The position numbers and the translations under genes were made by a program. A stretch of DNA of 64,000 nt from positions 1,426,001-1,490,000 of the forward strand of contig NZ_CP054052.1 in NCBI RefSeq assembly GCF_013283835.1, written 5' to 3'. The notes under the pieces were generated by a model. The model ran no database searches, was not told the origin of the DNA, and worked only from the letters and a program-made list of their open reading frames with translations. This stretch comes from Poseidonibacter lekithochrous (GTDB lineage Bacteria; Campylobacterota; Campylobacteria; Campylobacterales; Arcobacteraceae). How positions within the stretch are numbered: the stretch's first letter is position 1; the number at the start of each line of letters is the position of its first letter. This document shows positions 6,678-33,140 of the stretch, piece by piece.

Positions 6678-7697
6678 CTAAAAGAATTCTAAATCATTAT
6701 CATCTTCTTTTTCTTTCTGATTTATTGTATTTTCAAAGAAGGTGATATTTTCTCTATATGAATCATGAAAATAGTTTACGTCTTGAACATTCTCTTCCAT
6801 AAACATATCTAAGATATATTGTTTTATATCATTAATTAAAAACTCTAAAATACTAAATGCTTCTTCTTTAGTTCCATAATTAATATCATCTAGTTTAATA
6901 TCATCTAAAACTTCAGCAAGTCTTAGCACTTCTGATGTAACTTTTTCAACTCTATCAAAATAACTAAGAGTAGAGTGCAGTTTATGAATGTCATTAATTA
7001 ACTCTTCTAAATGTTCCTCTTCTTTGTACTCTTTATAAACAAAACTATCAAAATTATCACTCATATCATATAATGTATCCATTAATATTTCTTTTTGATT
7101 TTCAAAAAAGTAATAACTCTCAGGATCTTCAATTTTGATTTTTTCTAAGAACTCTTTTACTGATACTTTTGCATTTTGTTCTATGTCTTGTTCAATTTTT
7201 ACTTGAGTAGGGCTTTTTCTAGTTTCATCAATTGTTCTTTTTGAGATCTGTTTTACATAAGTATTAAATTTTACTCTTTCTAGTTCTTTTTTTGATTGGA
7301 TTTTTTTTAGTATTTTGGTAATTGTATTTTTCAGATTTGAAGTACTAATAGGTTTCTTTAAAAAACCATCAACTCCTATATCTATTAATTCTAATAAATA
7401 TTTTTCATCTGTATATGCAGATGTAATTAATATATTTTGCTCAGGAGTATGGGCTTTAATACCTTTACTTAACATGATGCCATTGGTGTTTGGCATTTGT
7501 ATATCACTTACAATTAAATCAAAATGTTCTTTTCGAAATAAATCCCAAGCTTCTTTGCCATCTGCTGCTGTCTTTACAAGAGAAAAGTATGTTTCTAGTG
7601 CAACTTTAAAAATTTCTAGAATCTGCTCATCATCTTCTATTAAAAGTACTTTTTTACCTTTTGCTAGTTTTATTAATAAATTCACATCTGTTTTCAT
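6678..7697 (-). CDS. Receiver domain protein with C-terminal helical domain and LEFF tail
   Basis: A 339-residue protein, last in the chemosensory operon. Residues 15-130 are a complete receiver: acidic pocket E21-D22-D23, phospho-acceptor D65 (VSDIQMP), T92 and K115 (LKKP). Residues 150-325 are predicted helical with no known output domain. The last residues are acidic and end DNDLEFF. The C-terminal half aligns by eye with the protein encoded at 8729-9601, which ends DDSSLEFFE, so the two are paralogues on either side of cheB. The gene starts three bases after the cheB stop, with AAGGA. A role in CheY or receptor control is inferred from position only. Confidence 0.7.
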   Translation of the reverse strand: MKTDVNLLIKLAKGKKVLLIEDDEQILEIFKVALETYFSLVKTAADGKEAWDLFRKEHFDLIVSDIQMPNTNGIMLSKGIKAHTPEQNILITSAYTDEKYLLELIDIGVDGFLKKPISTSNLKNTITKILKKIQSKKELERVKFNTYVKQISKRTIDETRKSPTQVKIEQDIEQNAKVSVKEFLEKIKIEDPESYYFFENQKEILMDTLYDMSDNFDSFVYKEYKEEEHLEELINDIHKLHSTLSYFDRVEKVTSEVLRLAEVLDDIKLDDINYGTKEEAFSILEFLINDIKQYILDMFMEENVQDVNYFHDSYRENITFFENTINQKEKEDDNDLEFF

Positions 7698-7700
7698 TGT

Positions 7701-8732
7701 TTATCCTTCTAAAGAGTTTATAATTTTTATTATCTCATTAGTGGATACTTCTTTGTTTACTCCACCAATTTGATTAGCAATATTTGACATACCGTATACA
7801 ATACAACTTTCTTCATCTTGCCCATAAGTGTTATATCCCATTTCTTTTAATTTTTTTATACCTAAAGCACCATCATCACCCATTCCAGTTAATATAAATG
7901 CTGTAATCTCTTGAGGTTTTATTTTTGATACAGATTTAAATAATGCATTAGCACTTGGCTTATGACTATTGATTTTTGGGTAATCTTTTAGAACTGTAAA
8001 ATACTCATCTCCTTTTTTTATGATTTCAGTGTGAATACCACCTTTTGAAATAATTACTTTATTAAGATCAATTGATTCATCATCTTTTGATTCTACTACA
8101 TTTGAATTAGTGATTTTGTTTAATCTTGTTGCAAAAGATGCCGTAAAACCCTCAGGCATATGTTGTGTGATTACTATACCAATATGGTTCTCTTTTAGTT
8201 TTGATATTATCTCTTCTAGAATTTGAACCCCACCAGTACTTGAGCCAATAACAACAAACTTTTTAGAAGATTTATTTCCAATACTATTTTTACTTAGATC
8301 TTTTTTTTCAATAATATTTGGTGTATATTTTACTGTCGCTTTTGAAGCTGAATAAATTGCACGTATAATTTCTTCTTTTTGTTCATTAAAAAAGTCTTTT
8401 AAATTTAGTTTTGGTTTTAAGATAATATCTAAAGCCCCAAGTCTAAGGGAATCAATAGCAGAACTTGAACCATCACTAACTAAAGTTGAGCAAATAATAA
8501 CAGGAATATGTTTTTGTTTATTAATTTGCTTTAAAAATGTTAAACCATCCATTTTTGGCATTTCTATATCTAATATAAACACATCAGGTAGTCCTACTTT
8601 TTTGAAGATTTCAAAAGCATCTACTGGATTGGCTGATTCACCAATTACTTTGATGTTTTGTTCATATTGTAAGATTTTATTTAATGCATTCCTAACAATC
8701 ATAGAATCATCAATTATAAATACTTTTATCAT
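7701..8732 (-). CDS. cheB: Chemotaxis response regulator protein-glutamate methylesterase
   Basis: A 343-residue CheB with both domains. The receiver has DD at 8-9 and acceptor D55 (FILDIEMP). The catalytic domain has GSSTGG (catalytic Ser about 165), the histidine in TQHMP (H191) and the aspartate in GMGDDG (about 286). It removes methyl groups from, and deamidates, receptor glutamyl sites, opposing CheR. Many Campylobacterota CheB proteins lack the receiver; this one keeps it. Its start overlaps the stop of the preceding gene as ATGA, which implies translational coupling, and GGAG precedes the start. Confidence 0.95.
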   Translation of the reverse strand: MIKVFIIDDSMIVRNALNKILQYEQNIKVIGESANPVDAFEIFKKVGLPDVFILDIEMPKMDGLTFLKQINKQKHIPVIICSTLVSDGSSSAIDSLRLGALDIILKPKLNLKDFFNEQKEEIIRAIYSASKATVKYTPNIIEKKDLSKNSIGNKSSKKFVVIGSSTGGVQILEEIISKLKENHIGIVITQHMPEGFTASFATRLNKITNSNVVESKDDESIDLNKVIISKGGIHTEIIKKGDEYFTVLKDYPKINSHKPSANALFKSVSKIKPQEITAFILTGMGDDGALGIKKLKEMGYNTYGQDEESCIVYGMSNIANQIGGVNKEVSTNEIIKIINSLEG

Positions 8733-9601
8733 TCAAAAAACTCCAGACTACTGTCATCAGTACTTGTTTCTTTTGCTTTAAAAGAATTTTTAAGAAATTT
8801 TAATGAATTCTCCAAAGAATCCTCAACCACGTAAAGATCAGTAAAGTTACGTTTAATAAAATAATTATCTAAGAATATTGCTATATCTTCAATAATTCGA
8901 GATAGATAAGTAAAACTTTCAATATTATCAACAGAAGCCTTTTTTAAATCTACTTTATTAAGCATTGCAGCGAAATATTTCATAGAGTTTTTGATTTTTT
9001 TTGAATACATTAGATAGTTTTCAAAAATTTTATTTATTCTGTTTATTGACTGTTTTACTTTATGTATATTGCCTTCTGATATATCACCTTCATCTATTAT
9101 TTTAGATAAATGATGAAGCTCATCTCTAATGAAAATTATTTGAATTTCAAAAGAGTCAACATATGTATTACTTGTATCTTCTAATGTTTTTGTTTCATCA
9201 AAAGCTTTTTCTTGTAATAGTGAGTACATTTTATAACTTAGAAGTTCTTCATTTATACTCTTTGTAAAAGATGTATTTGAAAGATTTAACATTTCAAAGT
9301 GAACTTCTTCCTCTTCATTCTGACAGTATAAAACTTTTATATCTTCATACTTCAAAATTTCAAGAAGATATAAACAAATTTCTTCTTTATTCTCTTTGGA
9401 ATTAATGATTATTACATCAATATTGTTATTTAATATTGTTGTATTTAAATTACTTAGAGTATAAGGTGTAGATTCTTGAATTAAAATGTCATTAAACATA
9501 TTAAATAAACCATTTAAATGTTTAAGGTTATCTTCTCCAAATAGTAATAAATTTTTATTTTTCGCAATAAATTTTAAGTTTATTTTTTCTTGTTCAAACA
9601 T
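8729..9601 (-). CDS. Pseudo-receiver protein with helical domain and LEFF tail
   Basis: A 290-residue protein between cheR and cheB. The N-terminal 120 residues follow the receiver pattern (LLLFGEDN, then DVIIINSKE, then SFTKSIN), but the phospho-acceptor position is N67 rather than Asp, while the acidic E23/D24 and K114 remain. Residues 145-275 are helical and align with the C-terminal domain of the protein at 6678-7697, for example DIAIFLDNYF with DIKQYILDMF. The end is DDSSLEFFE. It cannot be phosphorylated in the normal way, so a structural or adaptor role in the array is likely. This is inference; no named family was recognised. Confidence 0.65.
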   Translation of the reverse strand: MFEQEKINLKFIAKNKNLLLFGEDNLKHLNGLFNMFNDILIQESTPYTLSNLNTTILNNNIDVIIINSKENKEEICLYLLEILKYEDIKVLYCQNEEEEVHFEMLNLSNTSFTKSINEELLSYKMYSLLQEKAFDETKTLEDTSNTYVDSFEIQIIFIRDELHHLSKIIDEGDISEGNIHKVKQSINRINKIFENYLMYSKKIKNSMKYFAAMLNKVDLKKASVDNIESFTYLSRIIEDIAIFLDNYFIKRNFTDLYVVEDSLENSLKFLKNSFKAKETSTDDSSLEFFE

Positions 9602-9603
9602 AA

Positions 9604-10389
9604 TTAAACCTTTTTATAAATAGAATCTTTTACATATTGTAATGTCTTGAATTCTTCACTATGAAAATAGTCAGTCATTCCAACTATTAAATAACCACCT
9701 TTTTTTAGGTTATGAAGAATGTTTTTAATTACCTTGTTTTTTGTTTCTTCTGTAAAATAGATTAAAACATTTCTTAAAAAAATAACATCAAATTTTCCTA
9801 GTTCATCATTTTTGATCATTAAGTTATTTTCTAAAAAATTAGTCTGAAACTGTAGTTTTCTATCTACTAACATTTTTCCTTCATATTGTTGTCTTCCTAT
9901 TAGACAATATTTTTCTTGATATTTCTTAGGAATCTTTTCTAATAGAGCTACTTGATATAATCCTAATCTTGCAATATCTAAAACATGAGTATTTATATCT
10001 GTTCCAACAACTTCCCAATTGAATAAATTAGAATCTAAAACCATTGATATAGAATAGGCTTCTGCTCCAAATGATGCTGCTGCACTCCAAACCCTTAAAC
10101 TTTTTGATTTTTTTGCAAGTTGTTCTAAAAAATCAAAATGAGCCGTTTCTCTAAAGAAATATGTTTCATTTGTACTTATTTGATTTAAAAATTGTGATTT
10201 TTCAAATTTTGATAATTGAACTATTTTTAAATAATGAGAAAAATCTTTTATTTGATAATAGTTCAATCTTTTAAATAATCTTGTTTGAACCATATCTTTT
10301 TTTGAATCATTTAAAGTAATTCCAATTTCATTAAAAACTAATTTTTTGATAATGGCAAATTCGCTGTTTTTTAGGGATATATTAAACAT
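9604..10389 (-). CDS. cheR: Chemotaxis protein methyltransferase
   Basis: A 261-residue CheR that methylates receptor glutamates using SAM. The N-terminal helical domain runs to about residue 75, then TNETYFFRE (73-81), the SAM loop RVWSAAASFGAEAYS (98-112), the acidic GTDIN strand end and FLRNVLIYF (206-214). The SAM loop differs from the usual ACSTGEEPYS by having alanines at two positions. No beta-subdomain insertion problem or C-terminal TPR is seen. It sits between the cheV and pseudo-receiver genes with gaps of only a few bases. Confidence 0.93.
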   Translation of the reverse strand: MFNISLKNSEFAIIKKLVFNEIGITLNDSKKDMVQTRLFKRLNYYQIKDFSHYLKIVQLSKFEKSQFLNQISTNETYFFRETAHFDFLEQLAKKSKSLRVWSAAASFGAEAYSISMVLDSNLFNWEVVGTDINTHVLDIARLGLYQVALLEKIPKKYQEKYCLIGRQQYEGKMLVDRKLQFQTNFLENNLMIKNDELGKFDVIFLRNVLIYFTEETKNKVIKNILHNLKKGGYLIVGMTDYFHSEEFKTLQYVKDSIYKKV

Positions 10390-10393
10390 AATT

Positions 10394-11332
10394 TTACTTT
10401 ATGTATTTTTTAATTGCCATACTTAATGACTGAATATCTACTTTACAAACAATTTCATTTGCACCTAGTGTCATTAACTCATTTCTCATAATGTCATTTG
10501 CCATATTAGTATGAACTAGAATATTTAACTCATCATATTTAGCTTCATTTCTAACTTTTTTTATTACTTCTTTTCCACCAATTATTGGCATTTCAACATC
10601 TGTTACAACTAAACCTATTTCTTCTTGTGTATATTTGTCTATCTCATTTAATAATTGTTCTCCATTACTTAAAATTTTGTAATTGAGATTTAATTCTAAA
10701 CATACTTTTTTTAGTAGATTTTGAATTAACTTACTATCATCAGCAAGAAGAACCATTTTTTGGTTATCTATGGATTTTATATTTTGTAAATCATTTAAAG
10801 AAGATTCATTTTGATCTTCAAAAGTATCAAAAAGTAGTTTGTCTGAATCAATAATAGTACATAAATGTTCACTATTATTAAGTGCAATTTTTGTAGTAAA
10901 CGTAGATTTTGAATTTCCACTTGTAGTTGATTGCATCATGTTTGGTTCAATTGTAGTAATATATTCAACATTTTTTACAAGTAAACCAAATTTTTCACCA
11001 CCATAATTTACAATAATTACAAATTCAGTATCATTTTCATTAAAGTCACCAACGCCTAACCAGCAATCAAAACTAACTAAACTTAGCATTTCTCCTCTTA
11101 CATCAGCTACTCCAACAATAAGATTGTCATCATAGTTTCTAACCATTGTAAGAGTTTTGAAAACTACAATCTCTTCAATTTTTGATACATTTTTAGCATA
11201 ATATTGTTCATCTTTCCCATGAAAAAGTAGATATTGATTTGCATCATTTGCATTTGTAGATACAAGTTTTACTATATCAATTTCTTCTTCATCTAGATAA
11301 TCATATTCACTTTCATAACTTGTAGCATCCAT
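10394..11332 (-). CDS. cheV: Chemotaxis coupling protein CheV (CheW domain plus receiver)
   Basis: A 312-residue CheV. Residues 28-180 form a CheW-like coupling domain (VGVADVRGEMLSLVSF, GLLVKNVEYI), and residues 190-312 a receiver with DD in LLADDSK, acceptor Asp in VVTDVEMP and Lys in IVCKVD. CheV couples receptors to CheA and is thought to tune signalling through phosphorylation. An acidic N-terminal leader of about 25 residues is unusual. It starts after AAAGGA, two bases past the cheW stop. Confidence 0.9.
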   Translation of the reverse strand: MDATSYESEYDYLDEEEIDIVKLVSTNANDANQYLLFHGKDEQYYAKNVSKIEEIVVFKTLTMVRNYDDNLIVGVADVRGEMLSLVSFDCWLGVGDFNENDTEFVIIVNYGGEKFGLLVKNVEYITTIEPNMMQSTTSGNSKSTFTTKIALNNSEHLCTIIDSDKLLFDTFEDQNESSLNDLQNIKSIDNQKMVLLADDSKLIQNLLKKVCLELNLNYKILSNGEQLLNEIDKYTQEEIGLVVTDVEMPIIGGKEVIKKVRNEAKYDELNILVHTNMANDIMRNELMTLGANEIVCKVDIQSLSMAIKKYIK

Positions 11333-11334
11333 AA

Positions 11335-11826
11335 CTAATCCTTTATAGCAGATAGTTCTGAGATTTTTAAAACCTCTTCATGATTAATAATACAAACTTC
11401 TTTATCATTATATTTAGCAATATTTTTTATAAATTTTGTATCAATTTTAGTTCCAAATAAAGGTGTATCACAAAGACTGTTTTCATCTAATCCATCTACT
11501 TCATAAATTTCATCAATCATTATTGCAATATCATGAACTTTGCTATTTTGATTTACTTGTACAATTGCAAAAGAAGTACGATCTAGAACTTGTGTCTCTT
11601 GTACTTCAAACCTATCTAATAAATCAATTACTGCAACTATATTTCCTCTAATATTTGTAACACCTTTTACATAGGAGTTAAGTTTTGGTACCTTTGTAAT
11701 ATCTTGATATTCAACAATTTCTCTAACTATTAATACAGGTAAAGCATATAAATCATTGTTACTTAGAAACAAAAAATACTGTTCCCCTGTATTATTAATA
11801 AGTTCTTCTTCTTGTTCATCATACAT
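11335..11826 (-). CDS. cheW: Chemotaxis coupling protein CheW
   Basis: A 163-residue single CheW domain linking receptors to CheA. The first beta strands are YFLFLSNNDLYALPV; the conserved core is KGVTNIRGNIVAVIDLLDRF (about 64-83), followed by IAIMIDEIYEV. It follows the receptor gene by 12 bases and precedes cheV, with AGGA at correct spacing, so it is part of the same operon and is probably the coupler for that receptor. Confidence 0.93.
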   Translation of the reverse strand: MYDEQEEELINNTGEQYFLFLSNNDLYALPVLIVREIVEYQDITKVPKLNSYVKGVTNIRGNIVAVIDLLDRFEVQETQVLDRTSFAIVQVNQNSKVHDIAIMIDEIYEVDGLDENSLCDTPLFGTKIDTKFIKNIAKYNDKEVCIINHEEVLKISELSAIKD

Positions 11827-11838
11827 GATTAAGTCCTA

Positions 11839-13644
11839 TTACAATCTACTAAACTCTCTTAAATCCATTGTTTCTTCTAATTGTGAATCCAATGAGTTTG
11901 GAGTTAAAATAGCATTGTTATTAATATTTGAAGTTTTGAAGAACTCCATTAGTTTTACTAATCCATTTGATTGTCCATCAAGCTCTTCTGCTGCACTTGA
12001 TAACTCTTGTGCACTTGTAGAATTACTTTGTGTTACACCATCTAATTGAACCATTGCATGGCTAATTTGTTCGATCCCTTTACTTTGTTCATTACTAGCA
12101 TTTGAAATACTTTGGATTAAATGTGCAGTTCTCTCAATTTTTGGAACTAGTGAGTTAATAAGTTCACCAGCTTCTTCACTTACTTTAACACTACTTTTTG
12201 TAATACTACTAATCTCTTTTGCTGCTACTTGAGACCTTTTAGCTAGTTTTCGCACCTCTGCTGCTACTACTGCAAAACCTTTTCCATGCTCTCCAGCTCT
12301 TGCTGCTTCAATAGCTGCATTTAATGCAAGAAGATTTGTTTGATATACAATATCCTCAATAATTATAATTCTATCTGCAATAATTTGCATAGATTCAACT
12401 GTCTGAGATACAGCCTCTCCACCTTTTTTCGCCATTTGTGAAGCTTCTGTTGCAATACCATTTGTTTCATTAGCATTTTTTGTATTCTCATCAATTGCAC
12501 CATTTAGTTGCTCAACGGCTGCTGTTGTTTGTCCAAGTGAGCTTTCTTGTTGCTCAGCTCCTAAAGATAGAGTTTGTGAAGTTTTATTTACTTCACTTGA
12601 GGCAACTCCCATTTCAGAAGCATTAGTTCTAATTTTTTCTACCATTTGTGTTAAGTTATCAACAAACTCATTTATATTTAGTTTGATAGCATTAAAGTCA
12701 CCAGGTAGTTCTATCTCAATTTTTGCAAGTAAATTACCATTACTCATTTTTCCTAGAATCTCTTTGATTTCTGTAATAATATTTCCTAAAATATAAACCA
12801 GTTCATTAATTGAATTTTTACTAATTTCAAAAGTACCTTTATAGTTTTTTACAATTTGAGCATCAAAATCTCCATCTTTGATTTTTAATAAACTCTCATT
12901 AATATCATTTAAAGTCATTTGTACATTATTGGCAAATGTATTGATACTATCTTTTGTATATTTGAATTGACCTGTATATTCATTCTCAATTCTTTGTGAA
13001 AAATCACCTTCTTGCATCATTGAAAGATTACTATTAACATCACTTATAAATAATTCAATATTATCTATAATTTTGTTAGTAGCAGTATGTATTTTAATAA
13101 AATCATTTTGATACTTACTAGTATCAACTCTAAGACCAAGCTCACCTGCATCAATTGCTTCATCAATCATTTCTGTATCAATAACTAGTTCCATTAGGCT
13201 TTCACCTAAGTTATTTACAATTTGTTTGAAATAACCTAAACTTCCAAGGTACTCGCTAGTAATTCTTGCGCTCATATCACCATTTGCTAGTTTTTCAACT
13301 GTCTCTCCTAAATCTCTAAATGCACTTACTGTTAGATCAACTGTATAGTTATTATTTTCCATTAACACTGCATATGAACCACTTAGACTTAAAGTATCAA
13401 TTCTCTCATCAACTTCACCTTGTGATACTTGATCTACTAAAGTTGTTGAGCTTTGTAGTGAATAAGATAATTGTGATTTAATCTCATTTATATAGTTACA
13501 AATATTATTTAAACTTTCATCTTCACATTCAAGCTCTTGAAAATCAAATTCACCTTGAGATAAACTTTTTAATGATTCTTCAATAAGTGTTAAATTCTCA
13601 TTCCCAGCAATTCGCTGTTCTCTTGTTTTTCTTATCTTTTCCAT
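11839..13644 (-). CDS. Soluble chemoreceptor with seven tandem HAMP-like repeats
   Basis: A 601-residue methyl-accepting chemotaxis protein with no transmembrane segment and no separate sensor domain. From about residue 25 to 330 it is a chain of HAMP-like units whose conserved glycine (as in QGEF, QGEV, NGDM, AGEL, EGDF, DGDF, NGNL) occurs at 31, 76, 122, 167, 213, 258 and 303, a spacing of 45 or 46. The signalling hairpin tip reads [21 protein letters not shown]. It must be cytoplasmic. Input may come through the neighbouring Aer-like PAS protein or STAS protein. No CheR-tethering pentapeptide is seen at the C-terminus. Confidence 0.88.
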
Positions 13645-13653
13645 GATAGACTC

Positions 13654-14529
13654 CTAATATTTATCTCTGATGATTGTTAGATTATTAAACATATTATTTA
13701 TGTCACAACTCAAATCTTCTGCCATATTTTTAAAAGAACTCATATTTTCATTTTCTTTTGCTTTTTGTATATATTTATCAACACTTGCATGAAATTTAGA
13801 ATGATTTTGAACTAGCTGAATCCATGCTTCATCGCTTGTGAAACTTTCATTCTTCATATTTTCAAAGATTTCTCTGAATTTATATACACTATGTTTTTTA
13901 TCCTCTAACTCCTGAATCTGTCCATTTTTAATACAACTATTTAGATACTCTTTAAATATTAAATGTGTATTTCTCTCTTTGTTATAATCAATATTTCGTA
14001 TAGCAATATTTTCAACACTTTTTTCTAATGATAATCTATCAATAAATTGATCATAAGTTAAGTTTCTTTCTTTCAAATAAGCTTGAACAAATTGTAATGA
14101 TTCATCTACTGAATGAGTTTTTTCATACTCTAATAAAGTGTTATAAAGCTTTGTTATATAATCTTTTGCAAAACTATTTAATGGTTTTCTATATGAAGTT
14201 ATTTTTACAACTTCCCCATTAACAATAATAGGTTTTACATAGGCTTTAACCCAATAATAATCCCCATTTCTTGCAATATTTTTAACAAAAGCATAAATAA
14301 CTTCGCCATTTAGAACCCTGTTCCAAAGGAGTTTGAATATAGCTTTAGGCATTTGTGGATGTCTAATCATATTATGAGGCTGACCAATTACTTCTGATCT
14401 TTTGTACCCAGCAATGTCACAAAAAATATCATTTGCATAAATGATTGTTCCTTTTTTATCTGTAGTACTTACAATCATATCTTTTTCAGTAATTTCGATT
14501 TCATTACCTGTATTAATTTCTAAGTTCAT
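13654..14529 (-). CDS. Aer-like PAS domain protein
   Basis: A 291-residue protein whose first 125 residues are a PAS domain of the Aer/CetB type: DIFCDIAGYKRSEVIG, then NMIRHPQMPKAIFKLLW, then NGDYYWVKAYVKPI. In Aer and CetB such domains bind FAD and report redox or energy state; whether FAD is bound here is not shown. Residues 130-291 are helical, with no recognised domain and no transmembrane helix. It lies between cheA and the soluble receptor with strong AAGGAG. A plausible role is redox input to the receptor, in the way CetB works with CetA, but that is inference from order. Confidence 0.8.
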   Translation of the reverse strand: MNLEINTGNEIEITEKDMIVSTTDKKGTIIYANDIFCDIAGYKRSEVIGQPHNMIRHPQMPKAIFKLLWNRVLNGEVIYAFVKNIARNGDYYWVKAYVKPIIVNGEVVKITSYRKPLNSFAKDYITKLYNTLLEYEKTHSVDESLQFVQAYLKERNLTYDQFIDRLSLEKSVENIAIRNIDYNKERNTHLIFKEYLNSCIKNGQIQELEDKKHSVYKFREIFENMKNESFTSDEAWIQLVQNHSKFHASVDKYIQKAKENENMSSFKNMAEDLSCDINNMFNNLTIIRDKY

Positions 14530-14530
14530 A

Positions 14531-16636
14531 TCATTCTCCTTGTTTGATTCGATATTCTAATAATCTTGGAATATCAAAAATTAATGCTACATCACCTGTA
14601 CCAAGAATCGATCCTCCACTAATCCCTGGCACGTTTTCAAATATCTCACCAAGGGGTTTAATTACAGTTTGTTGTCCACCAAATAATTCATCAACTTGAA
14701 GACCAACTTTGTAATTACCATATTTAACTATCACAACATTTTTTCGTATTTCCTTTATGACTTTTTCATTATAAAAGGAGCGGATATCTAAAAGAGGTAA
14801 GACTTCACCTCTTACATTAATAGTGCTAGAACCTTCTATGCTAGTTTGACATTCAGGAGTTAATTCCATACATTCACTTATTAAATCTAAGGGAATAATA
14901 TATTTTGTTTCACCTGCTTGAACTAAGAAACCATCAATAATTGCGAGTGTTAAAGGTAAACGTATTGTAATTTTACTCCCTTTATTCTCACTACTATCAA
15001 CATCAATTACACCTCTTAACTCTTCAATATTTCTTTTTACAACATCCATTCCTACGCCACGACCAGAAATATCTGATACTTCTGATGCTGTTGATAATCC
15101 AGCTTCAAATATTAATTTATATATTTGTTTATCACTTAATTTATGATTTTTATCAACAACTCCATTTTCGATGGCTTTTTGTAAAACAATATTTTTATTT
15201 ATACCTGCTCCATCATCTTGAATTTCGATAATAATACTTCCTGAATCAGGATATGCTCGTAAATATACTGTTCCTTTTGCTTTTTTACCTTTTTGTTCTC
15301 TAACCTCAGGCATTTCAACACCATGATCGATTGAGTTTCTAAGCATATGAACTAGTGGATCACTTAGTTTTTCAACTACACTTTTATCAAGTTCTGTATC
15401 CCCACCTTCAATAATAAAATCAATATCTTTACCTAATTTTTTGGCTGTATCATTTACAATTCTTTTAAACTTTACAAAGGAATCTTTTACTTGAACCATT
15501 CTAATATTCATTACAGCTTCTCTTATTTCTTCAAGTAATAATGAAATGCCTTCTGATACTTCTTCTAAATCCTCGTCAGCATTTTGTTCTGCAATTTGCA
15601 TAAGTTTTGCATTTTGAATTACCATTTCACCCATTTTATTAATTAATAAATCAACCTTTGAAGAATCAACTCTTAATGAAAAAGACTTATTAGTAATTTC
15701 AGGATTTGCTTTTGATTCTTCTTTAATTGTTTCATTGTTAATTGTTACTTGAGTACTAGGAGTTTTCACTTCAATAATTTCTTGTTTTATCTCTTCTTGA
15801 ATAGCAGGTGTTTGTTTTATTTCAAATGATTCTTCATTATATGAGCAGTTTTCGATTAATACTTCTTTTAAATTTTCATTTTCTCTATGTGTAAGAAGTG
15901 TCAATAAAGAATCAATATCATTGTGTTTAAATACAAATAAATCTACATCATCTTCAACAAATTCAAATATTTCTAAGATGTCATCCTTAGAACAATCTGA
16001 TTCAAAATCAAATTCAAAACCAATATATGTTTTAAAACAATTAATATTTTCTAAATTTGGAATAGAAGATGTAATTGGTATATTAATTAATATTTCACCC
16101 ATTTTGTTAAAGAATCTAAAAATTGAAATAATGTCCATTCCCGAATTAAAAAAGTCTTCATCAAATCTAAGTGAGATATGCCATAATAATTCATCTTCAT
16201 TACTTACAGCTTTTTCTTCAACTTCTATTATTTGATTATCAATAGTAATTGGTTCATTTAAAAATGATGATAATTCAATTTGTAGATTCTGTGTTTGACT
16301 TGTTAATTCCTCTGAAAAATCTTGATTATTTACACAACATTCCACCATATTTTGAGTATTGTCTTTTACATTCATAAATAAAGAAGATAATGTTGCATCT
16401 AATTTTGTATTACCGCATCTTACATCATCTAATAAATTCTCAGCAATATGAGTAAAGCTAACAATGTTATCAAATTCAAACATTCCAGCAGTACCCTTAA
16501 TTGTATGCATTGCACGAAATATTTCCCCGATTTTTTCAATATCATCAGTTCCATCTTTTGCATCTAATAATGCATTTTCCATTAGTTGTAATTGTTCAGT
16601 TGCATCTTCATAAAAAAGTGTTAGTTCTTCTTCCAT
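14531..16636 (-). CDS. cheA: Chemotaxis histidine kinase CheA (no receiver domain)
   Basis: A 701-residue CheA. HPt domain with H44 in AMHTIKGTAG; a middle domain around residues 150-245 (WHISLRFDEDFF) of the kind found in several non-enteric CheA proteins; dimerisation helices about 335-390; kinase domain with HMLRNSIDHGVE, DDGAGIN and GRGVGMDVV; and a C-terminal CheW-like domain ending near 700. No receiver follows, whereas the main CheA of Campylobacterota is usually a CheA-receiver fusion. This marks a separate chemosensory system. The start is one base from the STAS gene stop, after AGGAG. Confidence 0.95.
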   Translation of the reverse strand: MEEELTLFYEDATEQLQLMENALLDAKDGTDDIEKIGEIFRAMHTIKGTAGMFEFDNIVSFTHIAENLLDDVRCGNTKLDATLSSLFMNVKDNTQNMVECCVNNQDFSEELTSQTQNLQIELSSFLNEPITIDNQIIEVEEKAVSNEDELLWHISLRFDEDFFNSGMDIISIFRFFNKMGEILINIPITSSIPNLENINCFKTYIGFEFDFESDCSKDDILEIFEFVEDDVDLFVFKHNDIDSLLTLLTHRENENLKEVLIENCSYNEESFEIKQTPAIQEEIKQEIIEVKTPSTQVTINNETIKEESKANPEITNKSFSLRVDSSKVDLLINKMGEMVIQNAKLMQIAEQNADEDLEEVSEGISLLLEEIREAVMNIRMVQVKDSFVKFKRIVNDTAKKLGKDIDFIIEGGDTELDKSVVEKLSDPLVHMLRNSIDHGVEMPEVREQKGKKAKGTVYLRAYPDSGSIIIEIQDDGAGINKNIVLQKAIENGVVDKNHKLSDKQIYKLIFEAGLSTASEVSDISGRGVGMDVVKRNIEELRGVIDVDSSENKGSKITIRLPLTLAIIDGFLVQAGETKYIIPLDLISECMELTPECQTSIEGSSTINVRGEVLPLLDIRSFYNEKVIKEIRKNVVIVKYGNYKVGLQVDELFGGQQTVIKPLGEIFENVPGISGGSILGTGDVALIFDIPRLLEYRIKQGE

Positions 16637-16637
16637 T

Positions 16638-16895
16638 TTATACTCCTAAAACGTAAGCGATTCCTGTTATCTCAAAAGAAGATAATACTTCTTGTTTGAG
16701 ATTTTTAATTTCAAATTCTTTTTTTGATTCTTCACAACTTTTTTTTAAAGCAATTAAAAGTTGCATTGCACTCATATCAATTTTTGTTATATTCTCAAGG
16801 TCAAGTACAACTTTGTCTTGTTCTAAAAGTTTTGAAAAATCTTTTTTAATTTCTTCTACTTCATATATTGTGAAGTTATTATTTTCAAGTTTCAT
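16638..16895 (-). CDS. STAS domain protein
   Basis: An 85-residue single STAS (anti-sigma antagonist-like) domain. It shows the conserved block VVLDLENITKIDMSAMQLLIALKKSCE, in which the DMSAMQ serine is at the position phosphorylated in SpoIIAA proteins, and ends in the usual FEITGIAYVLG helix-strand. STAS genes accompany several non-enteric chemosensory operons, between cheY and cheA as here. Its partner is unknown; it may hold or release another operon product in response to nucleotide or kinase state. Confidence 0.85.
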   Translation of the reverse strand: MKLENNNFTIYEVEEIKKDFSKLLEQDKVVLDLENITKIDMSAMQLLIALKKSCEESKKEFEIKNLKQEVLSSFEITGIAYVLGV

Positions 16896-16898
16896 GTT

Positions 16899-17264
16899 TT
16901 ATCCTAGAAGCTTTTCAAGGGCAATAAGAAATTTAGCTTTATTAAAAGGTTTTACTAACCAAGCTTTAACACCTAATGCTTTTCCTTTTGCTTTTAAGTC
17001 ATCTTTAGATTCAGTTGTCAACATAACAATAGGTAAAAATTTGTATGCAGGATCTTTTTTGATTTCTGCAACCATTTCTAGTCCACCCATATTAGGCATA
17101 TTTACATCACTAAATACAATATCAATTTCATGTTGTTTGATTTTTTCTAAGCCTTCACTACCATCAGTTGCTAAAACTACGTTATAACCTGCTTCGATTG
17201 CAGCTTTTGAAGAGACACTTCTAATTAAACTAGCATCATCTACTAATAAAATTGTTTTTGCCAT
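16899..17264 (-). CDS. cheY: Chemotaxis response regulator CheY
   Basis: A 121-residue single receiver. All catalytic positions are present: D9-D10, phospho-acceptor D53 (FSDVNMP), T83/T84 and K105 (VKPF). As first gene of the chemosensory operon it is the likely phosphorylation output of this CheA, either to a flagellar motor or to another target. AAAGGA precedes the ATG. The upstream region contains the sequence TTTTGCCACA, also found in front of the kinase-like gene at 18217. Confidence 0.9.
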   Translation of the reverse strand: MAKTILLVDDASLIRSVSSKAAIEAGYNVVLATDGSEGLEKIKQHEIDIVFSDVNMPNMGGLEMVAEIKKDPAYKFLPIVMLTTESKDDLKAKGKALGVKAWLVKPFNKAKFLIALEKLLG

Positions 17265-31292: not shown

Positions 31293-33140
31293 GTGCGTAA
31301 AAATATTATTTTTAAATATATAATAATGGTTGCTGTTCTTGCTATTGTTATAACTGCTCTTAGTTTGTACAATTTGAGAAATATTGGAATTAAATCTGCT
31401 ATCCATAATGCAGAAGCCTTATCTGAAGTGATAAAAAGTGGATTAACATCCCATATGTTAAATAATAATATGCATCAAGTAGATACCTTTATTGACTCTG
31501 TATCTAATATAAAAAATGTAGATAAAATCTGGTTAGTTCGAGGAGATCTTGTAAGTAATCAATTTAAAAATATTGATAAAACGAAACTCCCAAAAGATGC
31601 CTTAGATAAAAGTGTTTTACTAACAGGTAAAATGCAATATGAAATTCAAGAAACATTTACTACAACAAATGTAAGAGTTACAATTCCTTACAACGCAATT
31701 GCTGAAAAAAATATTGACTGTTTACAGTGTCATAATGTAAAACAGGGAGAAACTTTAGGTGCAGTATCTTTAATGTTAGATATAAGTACTCTTAAGCAAA
31801 TCGGTATAGAATCAATTTATATTATTTCTCTTATTGTTATATTAACCATTGTGATTATTATATTTCTATCAAGAAAAATATTAAGACCTTATATTTCATT
31901 ATTTAACAGATTTAGTAATAACATTAATTGTGCAGTAACTGGTAAGTTTAATCAGATACAACCACCTCGTGGAATTACAAGTGAGATGTTAACTTTAACC
32001 CAAGAGTATAATAAGCTAATTGTAAACTTTAGAGAAACTTCTGTAGATATAGAAAAGAAACTACAAGGATTTATTGGTTACAACAATATTAATAATGGAA
32101 AAGACCCATTAAATGATTCTAAAGAAATTATTGATAATTTATCAAATTTATATCAATTTAAAAAAGAGATAGAATTAGACAATACAAGAGATGAAATATA
32201 TGCAAGATTATCTCAGATTTTCTTGAATAAATTTGGAATCAAAAACTTCTCTTTTGTTGAAATAGATATGTTAAAACAAAAAATGTCTGCTGTTGTAAAA
32301 GAAGGAAATATGTTCCACTGTGAAAAAACTATGAGTGAATCACCAGAGTTATGTAGAGCAGCTAGAACAAAAAGTGATGTAATGTCTATGGACTTCCATA
32401 GTACATGTCCATATTTTGAAAACAAAGACAAGTATTATTACTGTACCAACATAGATATTAGCAAAAATATCTATTTAATTATAAACTTTGTTTTTGATAC
32501 AAAAGAAGAGTTAGAGAACTTAAAGGAACAATTTACTTTTATAAAAAGTTATATTAATGAAGCAGCACCTTCTTTAGAAGTTAAATTATTAATGAATGCA
32601 CTTAAAGAATCAGCATTTAGAGATGGCTTAACAGGTCTTTATAATAGAAAGTTCTTAGAAGAACACACTAAAAAACTTATTCCTCAAGCTAAAAGAGAAA
32701 ATATTAATGTTGGTGTATTAATGTTAGATATGGATCACTTTAAAGCTGTTAATGATGAGTATGGACATGATATTGGTGATAAAGTGTTAAAAGAACTTGC
32801 ACGAATTTTAGATGAAACAGTTAGAGAGTCAGATTTAGTAATTAGATATGGTGGAGAAGAATTTATTGTATTACTAGTTGGTGTTAAATCTGAAGAAGAT
32901 ACTATTACTGTTGCTAATAAAATAGGGCAAAGAGTAAGAGAAAATGAAATCGATGTATACGCAGGTGCTAAACTTAAAAAGACTATTAGTATTGGTGTTT
33001 CGATGTTCCCTCAAGATTCAACTTCATTTAATGGTGTTGTTAAAAATGCTGATATTGCATTATATGAAGCAAAAAGTACAGGACGAGATAAAGTTGTAAG
33101 ATTCAAAGAAGAACAAGTATCAAGTGTAGACTTATTCTAA
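31293..33140 (+). CDS. Membrane diguanylate cyclase with periplasmic haem c sensor
   Basis: A 615-residue c-di-GMP synthase. A signal/TM helix (8-25) is followed by a periplasmic domain with a haem c site CLQCH (C143, C146, H147), in a context like the DUF3365/Tll0287 sensor fold, then a second TM helix (175-193), a HAMP-like stretch, and a cytoplasmic GAF-like region (about 295-425) with four cysteines (343, 354, 372, 384). The GGDEF domain starts near 443 (RDGLTGLYNR) and has an intact GGEEF (520-524). It can thus sense redox state or a diatomic gas at the haem, by inference, and make c-di-GMP. The start is GTG at 31293 after AAGG. Confidence 0.9.
   Translation: MRKNIIFKYIIMVAVLAIVITALSLYNLRNIGIKSAIHNAEALSEVIKSGLTSHMLNNNMHQVDTFIDSVSNIKNVDKIWLVRGDLVSNQFKNIDKTKLPKDALDKSVLLTGKMQYEIQETFTTTNVRVTIPYNAIAEKNIDCLQCHNVKQGETLGAVSLMLDISTLKQIGIESIYIISLIVILTIVIIIFLSRKILRPYISLFNRFSNNINCAVTGKFNQIQPPRGITSEMLTLTQEYNKLIVNFRETSVDIEKKLQGFIGYNNINNGKDPLNDSKEIIDNLSNLYQFKKEIELDNTRDEIYARLSQIFLNKFGIKNFSFVEIDMLKQKMSAVVKEGNMFHCEKTMSESPELCRAARTKSDVMSMDFHSTCPYFENKDKYYYCTNIDISKNIYLIINFVFDTKEELENLKEQFTFIKSYINEAAPSLEVKLLMNALKESAFRDGLTGLYNRKFLEEHTKKLIPQAKRENINVGVLMLDMDHFKAVNDEYGHDIGDKVLKELARILDETVRESDLVIRYGGEEFIVLLVGVKSEEDTITVANKIGQRVRENEIDVYAGAKLKKTISIGVSMFPQDSTSFNGVVKNADIALYEAKSTGRDKVVRFKEEQVSSVDLF

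Follow-up and report, generated by a model that had tools for sequence, protein, structure and literature searches.

The 64,000-nucleotide stretch of Poseidonibacter lekithochrous DNA studied here (contig NZ_CP054052.1, positions 1,426,001 to 1,490,000; hereafter the window, in whose numbering its features are placed) carries a chemosensory (che) cluster on its minus strand, in which two proteins that we call X1 (339 residues, 6678..7697) and X2 (290 residues, 8729..9601) have in common a helical C-terminal domain and a LEFF tail. Judged by sequence similarity, X1 and X2 belong to a domain family of Campylobacterota to which none of the scanned libraries has a match, which is common across the phylum and whose genes lie in or near che operons. 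The family has a conserved tail and a link to che loci; CheD and some GGDEF proteins end in a matching tail. Its distribution gives the LEFF/LELF peptide the look of a portable tag by which chemosensory proteins could dock. The reading that we favor, to which we give about an even chance, is that X1 and X2 are probably non-enzymatic chemosensory regulators, docked by the tail at the array and built around a body resembling a histidine phosphotransfer (HPt) domain, that is, a pseudo-HPt.

An earlier note, made from the sequence of the window alone, had placed two receiver-helical proteins on either side of cheB, one ending DNDLEFF and the other DDSSLEFFE. Both open reading frames (ORFs) were confirmed on the minus strand, as were their ends. 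We found that the C-termini of X1 and X2 align by BLAST with an E value of 3.2e-8, or 6.2e-6 when the tails are cut off, and that none of 500 shuffles reached their score with or without the tails. Their N-terminal parts show no sequence likeness, with a score reached by 250 of the 500 shuffles. The proposal of a common helical C-terminal domain is borne out by the BLAST and shuffle results and by helices in both predicted structures.

We then considered how widely the domain occurs. Among 104 genomes of the bacterial family to which the window belongs, the X1 C-terminus matched eight and the X2 C-terminus seven, and each query also matched proteins of the other type. A profile built from 12 C-termini, used at a cut-off of E ≤ 0.001, matched 77 of the 398 genomes scanned from the order; in a second sample of 397 genomes, drawn from the phylum and overlapping the first, it matched 53. 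Searching one genome per species across 84,980 species with the pattern HYLD[SA]SL[LF]S gave 78 loci from the best 80 of 88 confirmed matches, of which 77 are titled Campylobacterota or epsilon groups and one 'Proteobacteria bacterium CTSoil_042'; this pattern suits the branch of the family without X1 and X2, and X1/X2-like members beyond the phylum could escape it. No family for the domain was found in Pfam, NCBIfam, PHROGs or a PDB sequence search, whose best matches (E 6e-4 and 3e-3) were to designed coiled coils. The domain occurs behind intact receivers, degenerate receivers, PAS domains or unassigned fronts, or alone. Pfam scans of ten members' fronts identified a receiver in five (one cut by a contig end), a PAS domain in one and nothing over the cut-off in four, one of these four being a free-standing domain of 151 residues. 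Family members at L053, L055, L056 and L057 have an unassigned front of ~150 residues, possibly a sensor domain. Several members directly follow a gene that resembles the one for the window's PAS protein and is often as long as a sensor-kinase gene, which would fit cognate response regulators.

The tail is strongly conserved in these proteins. In a census of 1001 distinct complete ORFs from the window and the neighborhood loci, a strict form of the tail was found on 113 of 128 ORFs with the domain, compared with four of 873 other ORFs, and a profile built without the tail recovered the same 128. After clustering at 60% identity the strict tail was present in 69 of 79 clusters. Read by eye, the 15 misses comprise nine variants ending in F (such as DDFEMF, DDLVLF, DDDFLF and DEAEFF), two ending DLELS or DLEIP, and four with nothing similar. 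An alignment of 48 C-terminal domains (the best-scoring members, with six near-duplicates left out; X1 numbering) showed that S313 and F339 are invariant, with D290 kept in 47, D306 in 46 and F299 in 44. At the tail, position 337 is E in 42 and D in four, and position 338 is F in 35 and L in 13; conservation of the tail among relatives, which the earlier note had asked to have checked, was therefore found. The conserved residues cluster around the last two helices of the bundle and in the tail rather than on the helix where a phospho-His would be expected. In X1 the acidic end ...DDNDLEFF (6681..6710, minus strand) is predicted to be disordered, with a predicted local distance difference test (pLDDT) below 50, and in X2 the same holds from residue 277, the protein closing in ...TDDSSLEFFE (8732..8761, minus strand).

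Four ORFs in the census carry the tail outside the recognized domain set: a family relative missed by the profile (BLAST 1e-19 to X1), the main che cluster's CheD, a PAS-GGDEF protein encoded within a window-type operon (L175), and the window's own GGDEF protein (615 residues, 31293..33140, plus strand), whose end, SSVDLF, resembles the LEFF/LELF tail. Another GGDEF protein of this genome ends DEDTIELF. For CheD we read 50 main-cluster loci from the window's bacterial family, 30 fetched by search and 20 picked from the rest; setting aside L236, which was unparsed, 49 of 49 end in [IM][ED][LF]F, mostly MEIELF. This genome's own main-cluster CheD (L172:9804-10478, minus strand) ends GGVDLFG...MEIELF, with two similar short motifs. 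Because an X1-like domain was matched in eight of the 104 genomes and CheD in 93, the CheD tail cannot depend on the domain. Two DNA patterns for the tail were also run against this genome; X2 and the GGDEF protein of the window are out of reach of both. One, which cannot match X1 or CheD, gave nine matches compared with 10 in a backward control, and among the eight that were read (L187 ends TGG, with no stop) one open frame exceeded 80 codons, that of a GGDEF protein. The other gave eight matches compared with six in the control, and its only open frames over 80 codons were X1 and CheD. Of what the earlier note proposed for the tail, its reading as a possible docking peptide is supported: the tail is conserved and fits one.

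We next consider the body of the domain. The AlphaFold2 model of the X1 C-terminus has six helices, a mean pLDDT of 86.7 and a predicted template modeling score (pTM) of 0.80, with a disordered tail at residues 161-169 of 170 (X1 330-338; pLDDT < 50); the X2 model reached a mean pLDDT of 72.1 and a pTM of 0.50. The helical domain spans residues 180-326 in X1 (6720..7160, minus strand) and residues 146-275 in X2 (8777..9166, minus strand), the latter assigned by homology to X1 and by helices in the model. The top three VIA-align rows for the X1 model are all CheA P1 domains, and the next row has a Z of 10.6. The best, 3kyj, is the P1 domain of Rhodobacter sphaeroides CheA3, with a Z of 13.1, a root-mean-square deviation (rmsd) of 3.1 and 129 of 129 residues aligned, although helical bundles can score so by chance; the other two are 3kyi (Z 12.8) and 2ld6 (Z 11.7). 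Foldseek gave no E value under 0.5, with target-normalized template modeling scores of 0.59 and 0.72 for its P1 rows. No His is conserved on the second helix of the bundle, and the columns of His238 and His241 of X1 hold His in only five and three of the 48 domains. We therefore describe the C-terminal body by its modeled likeness to CheA P1/HPt and do not claim membership. In the model its helix order and overall fold resemble those of CheA P1; it differs in having no conserved phospho-His and no profile similarity and in being joined to receivers or sensors and followed by a tail. Plant pseudo-HPt proteins such as AHP6, with an HPt-like fold without the His, resemble this model; unlike them, the X1/X2 family is bacterial, is fused to receivers or sensors and carries a conserved tail.

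The N-terminal halves of the two proteins are one intact and one degenerate receiver, in keeping with the earlier note. X1 has an intact receiver (7320..7649, minus strand; residues 17-126 match PF00072, Response_reg, at E 6.2e-26) with its acceptor D65. The front of X2 (9203..9562, minus strand) has no Pfam receiver match and is recognized as a degenerate receiver by its modeled fold, for which the TadZ receiver 4lda gave a Z of 12.6 with an rmsd of 2.6 over 115 aligned residues. N67 in the acceptor place of X2 was confirmed, as was D65 in X1. The further claim that X2 keeps the other pocket residues holds in part: by motif reading E23/D24 and K114 are present, but C93 stands where Thr or Ser is expected. 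Over 14 N-termini of X2-type proteins the acceptor position is D in four, N in four, Y in three, and F, A and Q in one each, and the acids of the first beta strand drift. Since D remains in only four of these 14, loss of the acceptor is a trait of the clade and not peculiar to X2. In two X2-type proteins (L037, L038) the front domain is missing altogether.

The genomic setting ties the family to chemosensory genes. CheB was matched in 73 of the 77 genomes with the domain compared with 245 of all 398 (Fisher 2.4e-13, uncorrected for kinship), and 69 of the 77 hold two or more CheB. CheW domains were found in seven of seven family-bearing genomes checked, including the four without CheB. An X2-type gene lies between cheR and cheB in all 14 window-type operons that were read (the window, its close relative L060, L061, L065, L067-L072, L175 and L177-L179; G080 and G083 lie outside the order count); as presence of the domain was the criterion for fetching these loci, the count is blind to operons that lack it. 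Other genes are interposed around the X2-type gene in L065, L067, L072 and L175. A further family gene follows cheB in 11 of the 14, the exceptions being L065, L068 and L177, and in L065 a receiver-GGDEF protein without the tail (L065:10302-11561) occupies the place where other operons hold an X1-like gene. A ParA-like ATPase with the motif KGGVGKST lies between cheR and the X2-type gene in three operons (L065:7579-8394, L067:5075-5887, L072:11082-11897); Pfam ParA fell below the cut-off for the L065 protein, the only one scanned. This ATPase suggests partitioning of a cytoplasmic array.

The earlier note had held the pair to be specific to this chemosensory class, which proved wrong. The domain is also encoded in che operons of other types and next to PAS-kinase-like genes, and the tail is borne by CheD and GGDEF proteins as well. 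A second operon type with the domain runs cheY, receptor, cheW, cheA, cheR, kinase-like gene, cheD, cheB, often a PAS protein, and a family gene, with not every part present in each locus, and there is at least one more arrangement (L062). The second-type kinase-like protein beside cheR (L074:2066-2962, L075:3223-4113, L073:2707-3600) has a weak HisKA and a HATPase region, bears Asn where the phospho-His is expected (FNNP), and ends DDMKEF, FEMKEF or NDVLEM.

In the arrangement that we favor, each regulator would combine a variable N-terminal input, a receiver with its acceptor in X1 and a degenerate receiver in X2, with a helical body of HPt/CheA-P1-like fold lacking the phospho-His and a flexible acidic end that closes in [DE]n-[LIVFM]-[ED]-[FL]-F-COOH. 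The tail would be read by a shared chemosensory component, through a pocket that accepts Phe, and proteins bearing it would thereby gather at the array. CheB or CheR would be the first candidate readers because these read receptor tails in E. coli. The body may contact a receiver (its own, that of CheY or that of CheB) as a pseudo-HPt, passing no phosphate, with X2 as a constitutive part and X1 as a phosphorylation-gated copy.

A known peptide close to the tail is the pentapeptide of chemoreceptors. Receptor tails tether CheB and CheR (PMC7698151, PMC8609364), the pentapeptide follows the rule xZxxZ at the C-terminus (Z = F/W/Y) with an acidic bias, and in E. coli receptors a linker of ~35 residues precedes it (PMC7390727). 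The tail of the X1/X2 family resembles the NWETF-type pentapeptide in being short and acidic with a C-terminal Phe, in following a flexible stretch and in belonging to a chemosensory protein. The flexible stretch of X1 (residues 330-338) is shorter than the E. coli linker. Unlike the pentapeptide, the tail has Leu or Ile at position 2 and is found not only on some receptors but also on regulators, CheD and GGDEF proteins. We compared it with the ends of 25 receptor-like ORFs, 13 from operons of the window's type, six from the second type and six others. In the second type, five of six receptors end DDLKEF or DDLREF and one DTLEF; in the window's type, three of 13, including the window's own, end EFSRL.

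Several results weigh against docking at the array through a pseudo-HPt regulator. The tail fails the xZxxZ rule, as DLEFF of X1 has Leu at position 2. Ten of the 13 window-type receptors carry a different, canonical xZxxZ pentapeptide (DFDRY, NFERF), and the six other receptors have no such tail. The EG stretch of E. coli CheR varies among tail-bearing systems: it is kept in seven of eight window-type proteins (KD in L061), is GEG in L066 and changed or missing in the other four of five second-type proteins, and reads GEEV in the main cluster. Second-type CheD was tailless in three of three scanned, and four shorter CheD matches from the window's bacterial family end before the tail region. 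A regular expression picked out 15 ORFs with a terminal GGDEF domain; only two carry the tail, one of which (SSVDLF) could do so by chance, and the L065 GGDEF protein, missed by that expression, has none. For the body, the P1 domains come only at ranks 12 and 36 in Foldseek (E 1.8 and 4.3), with unrelated bundles ahead of them, and hhalign against 12 CheA P1 domains gave a probability of 0.1, so the likeness to P1 is structural only. In the branch of the family without X1 and X2 (21 sequences) a loop His (DIHYL) is invariant and one Gln nearly so, and the domain may have an active role there. Finally, both the docking of the tail and its partner are putative.

The earlier note had proposed a CheZ-like phosphatase, in which the tail would dock on phosphorylated CheY and the helical body would act as a phosphatase or CheY sink. 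E. coli CheZ is likewise all-helical with an acidic-hydrophobic end and a final Phe (QVDDLLDSLGF), an HPt-like body could bind receivers, and the other branch has its near-invariant Gln. However, X1 and X2 lack that Gln; no Gln or Asn is among the invariant or near-invariant columns over the 48 members; and the tail spacing differs from that of CheZ. The profile match to CheZ or HPt that was to be looked for was absent: neither PF04344 nor Pfam Hpt matched X1 or X2 at E up to 1. CheZ was also missing from the VIA-align match list of the X1 C-terminus, which is uninformative alone. The genome has a separate CheZ-like protein beside a flagellar cheY (L173:7938-8975, minus strand), found by its place next to cheY. 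Pfam CheZ had no match in this genome at E ≤ 0.001 and reached only E 2.2 on this protein, but 33 of its residues align with the active-site helix of E. coli CheZ (E 0.005) with the Asp and Gln kept. It ends differently, in DLDKLIAEFGN, and by eye several FliM-like peptides such as SQEEIEALM lie along its N-terminal part; LEFF is unlike these FliM/CheZ-type peptides. With this CheZ-like protein in the genome, X1 and X2 need not be the CheY phosphatase. The tail is also on CheD, which is not known to act as a CheY phosphatase. We consider a CheZ-like role for the pair improbable and the proposal, in its phosphatase form, unsupported, given the P1/HPt-like model, the lack of a conserved catalytic Gln/Asn and the separate CheZ-like protein. 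CheC and CheX have an ExxN motif and an alpha/beta fold; this reading was rejected, as the C-terminal model is all helical with no invariant or near-invariant Asn. A working HPt relaying phosphate would suit the fold, the position of His238 and His241 of X1 on the matching helix and the loop His of the other branch, but with His so rarely kept in the first two columns and the loop His replaced by Asn in X1 and Tyr in X2, we regard it as very improbable.

Two further explanations concern the tail alone. It could be an address for a polar hub or a signal for regulated proteolysis, and not a dock on Che proteins, which would explain its presence on unlike proteins, GGDEF included, and is consistent with the ParA-like ATPase in some of these operons. 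However, the carriers other than GGDEF proteins are all che-associated or family members, and CheW was present in every family-bearing genome checked, so we find this explanation unlikely. Overlapping with our favored reading, the tail could instead be a pathway-specific tether for CheR/CheB that copies the receptor pentapeptide. The DDLKEF/DDLREF ends of second-type receptors, near family tails such as DDLELF, argue for such copying, whereas the different canonical pentapeptides of most window-type receptors and the varying EG stretch of CheR among tail-bearing systems argue against it; on balance we think it doubtful.

Extending the docking of X1 and X2 to other proteins, we tentatively suggest, as a possibility that falls short of an even chance, that [DE]n-phi-[ED]-[FL]-F-COOH is a Campylobacterota C-terminal docking code by which one hub would recruit to arrays pseudo-HPt response regulators, some diguanylate cyclases, the CheD deamidase of one pathway and the receptors of another; adaptation would thereby be linked to two-component input and to cyclic di-GMP synthesis. 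Should the peptide prove to be a docking tag, it would offer a simple rule, open to testing, for membership of Campylobacterota arrays and for the possible wiring of two-component kinases, adaptation and cyclic di-GMP synthesis there. The accessible parts of a survey of Campylobacterota chemosensory systems, which uses dots for genes whose function is unknown and lists Arcobacter with class F7 only, do not describe the domain or the tail (PMC9321776), and among the titles listed by literature searches on this domain and on Campylobacterota or Arcobacter che genes none dealt with either.

The che cluster of the window is read on the minus strand in the order cheY, STAS, cheA, PAS protein, receptor, cheW, cheV, cheR, X2, cheB, X1. 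Its first gene encodes a CheY-like single receiver (16899..17264; PF00072, 6.6e-25), followed by the STAS protein (16638..16895), CheA (14531..16636), the PAS protein (13654..14529) and the receptor (11839..13644). CheW (11335..11826) and CheV, a CheW domain with a receiver (10394..11332), precede CheR (9604..10389; PF01739), which shows an E. coli-like EG stretch when aligned with E. coli CheR, and CheB (7701..8732; PF01339, 2e-47) lies between X2 and X1. The receptor has the tail DLREFSRL and repeated HAMP_2 matches, in five stretches.

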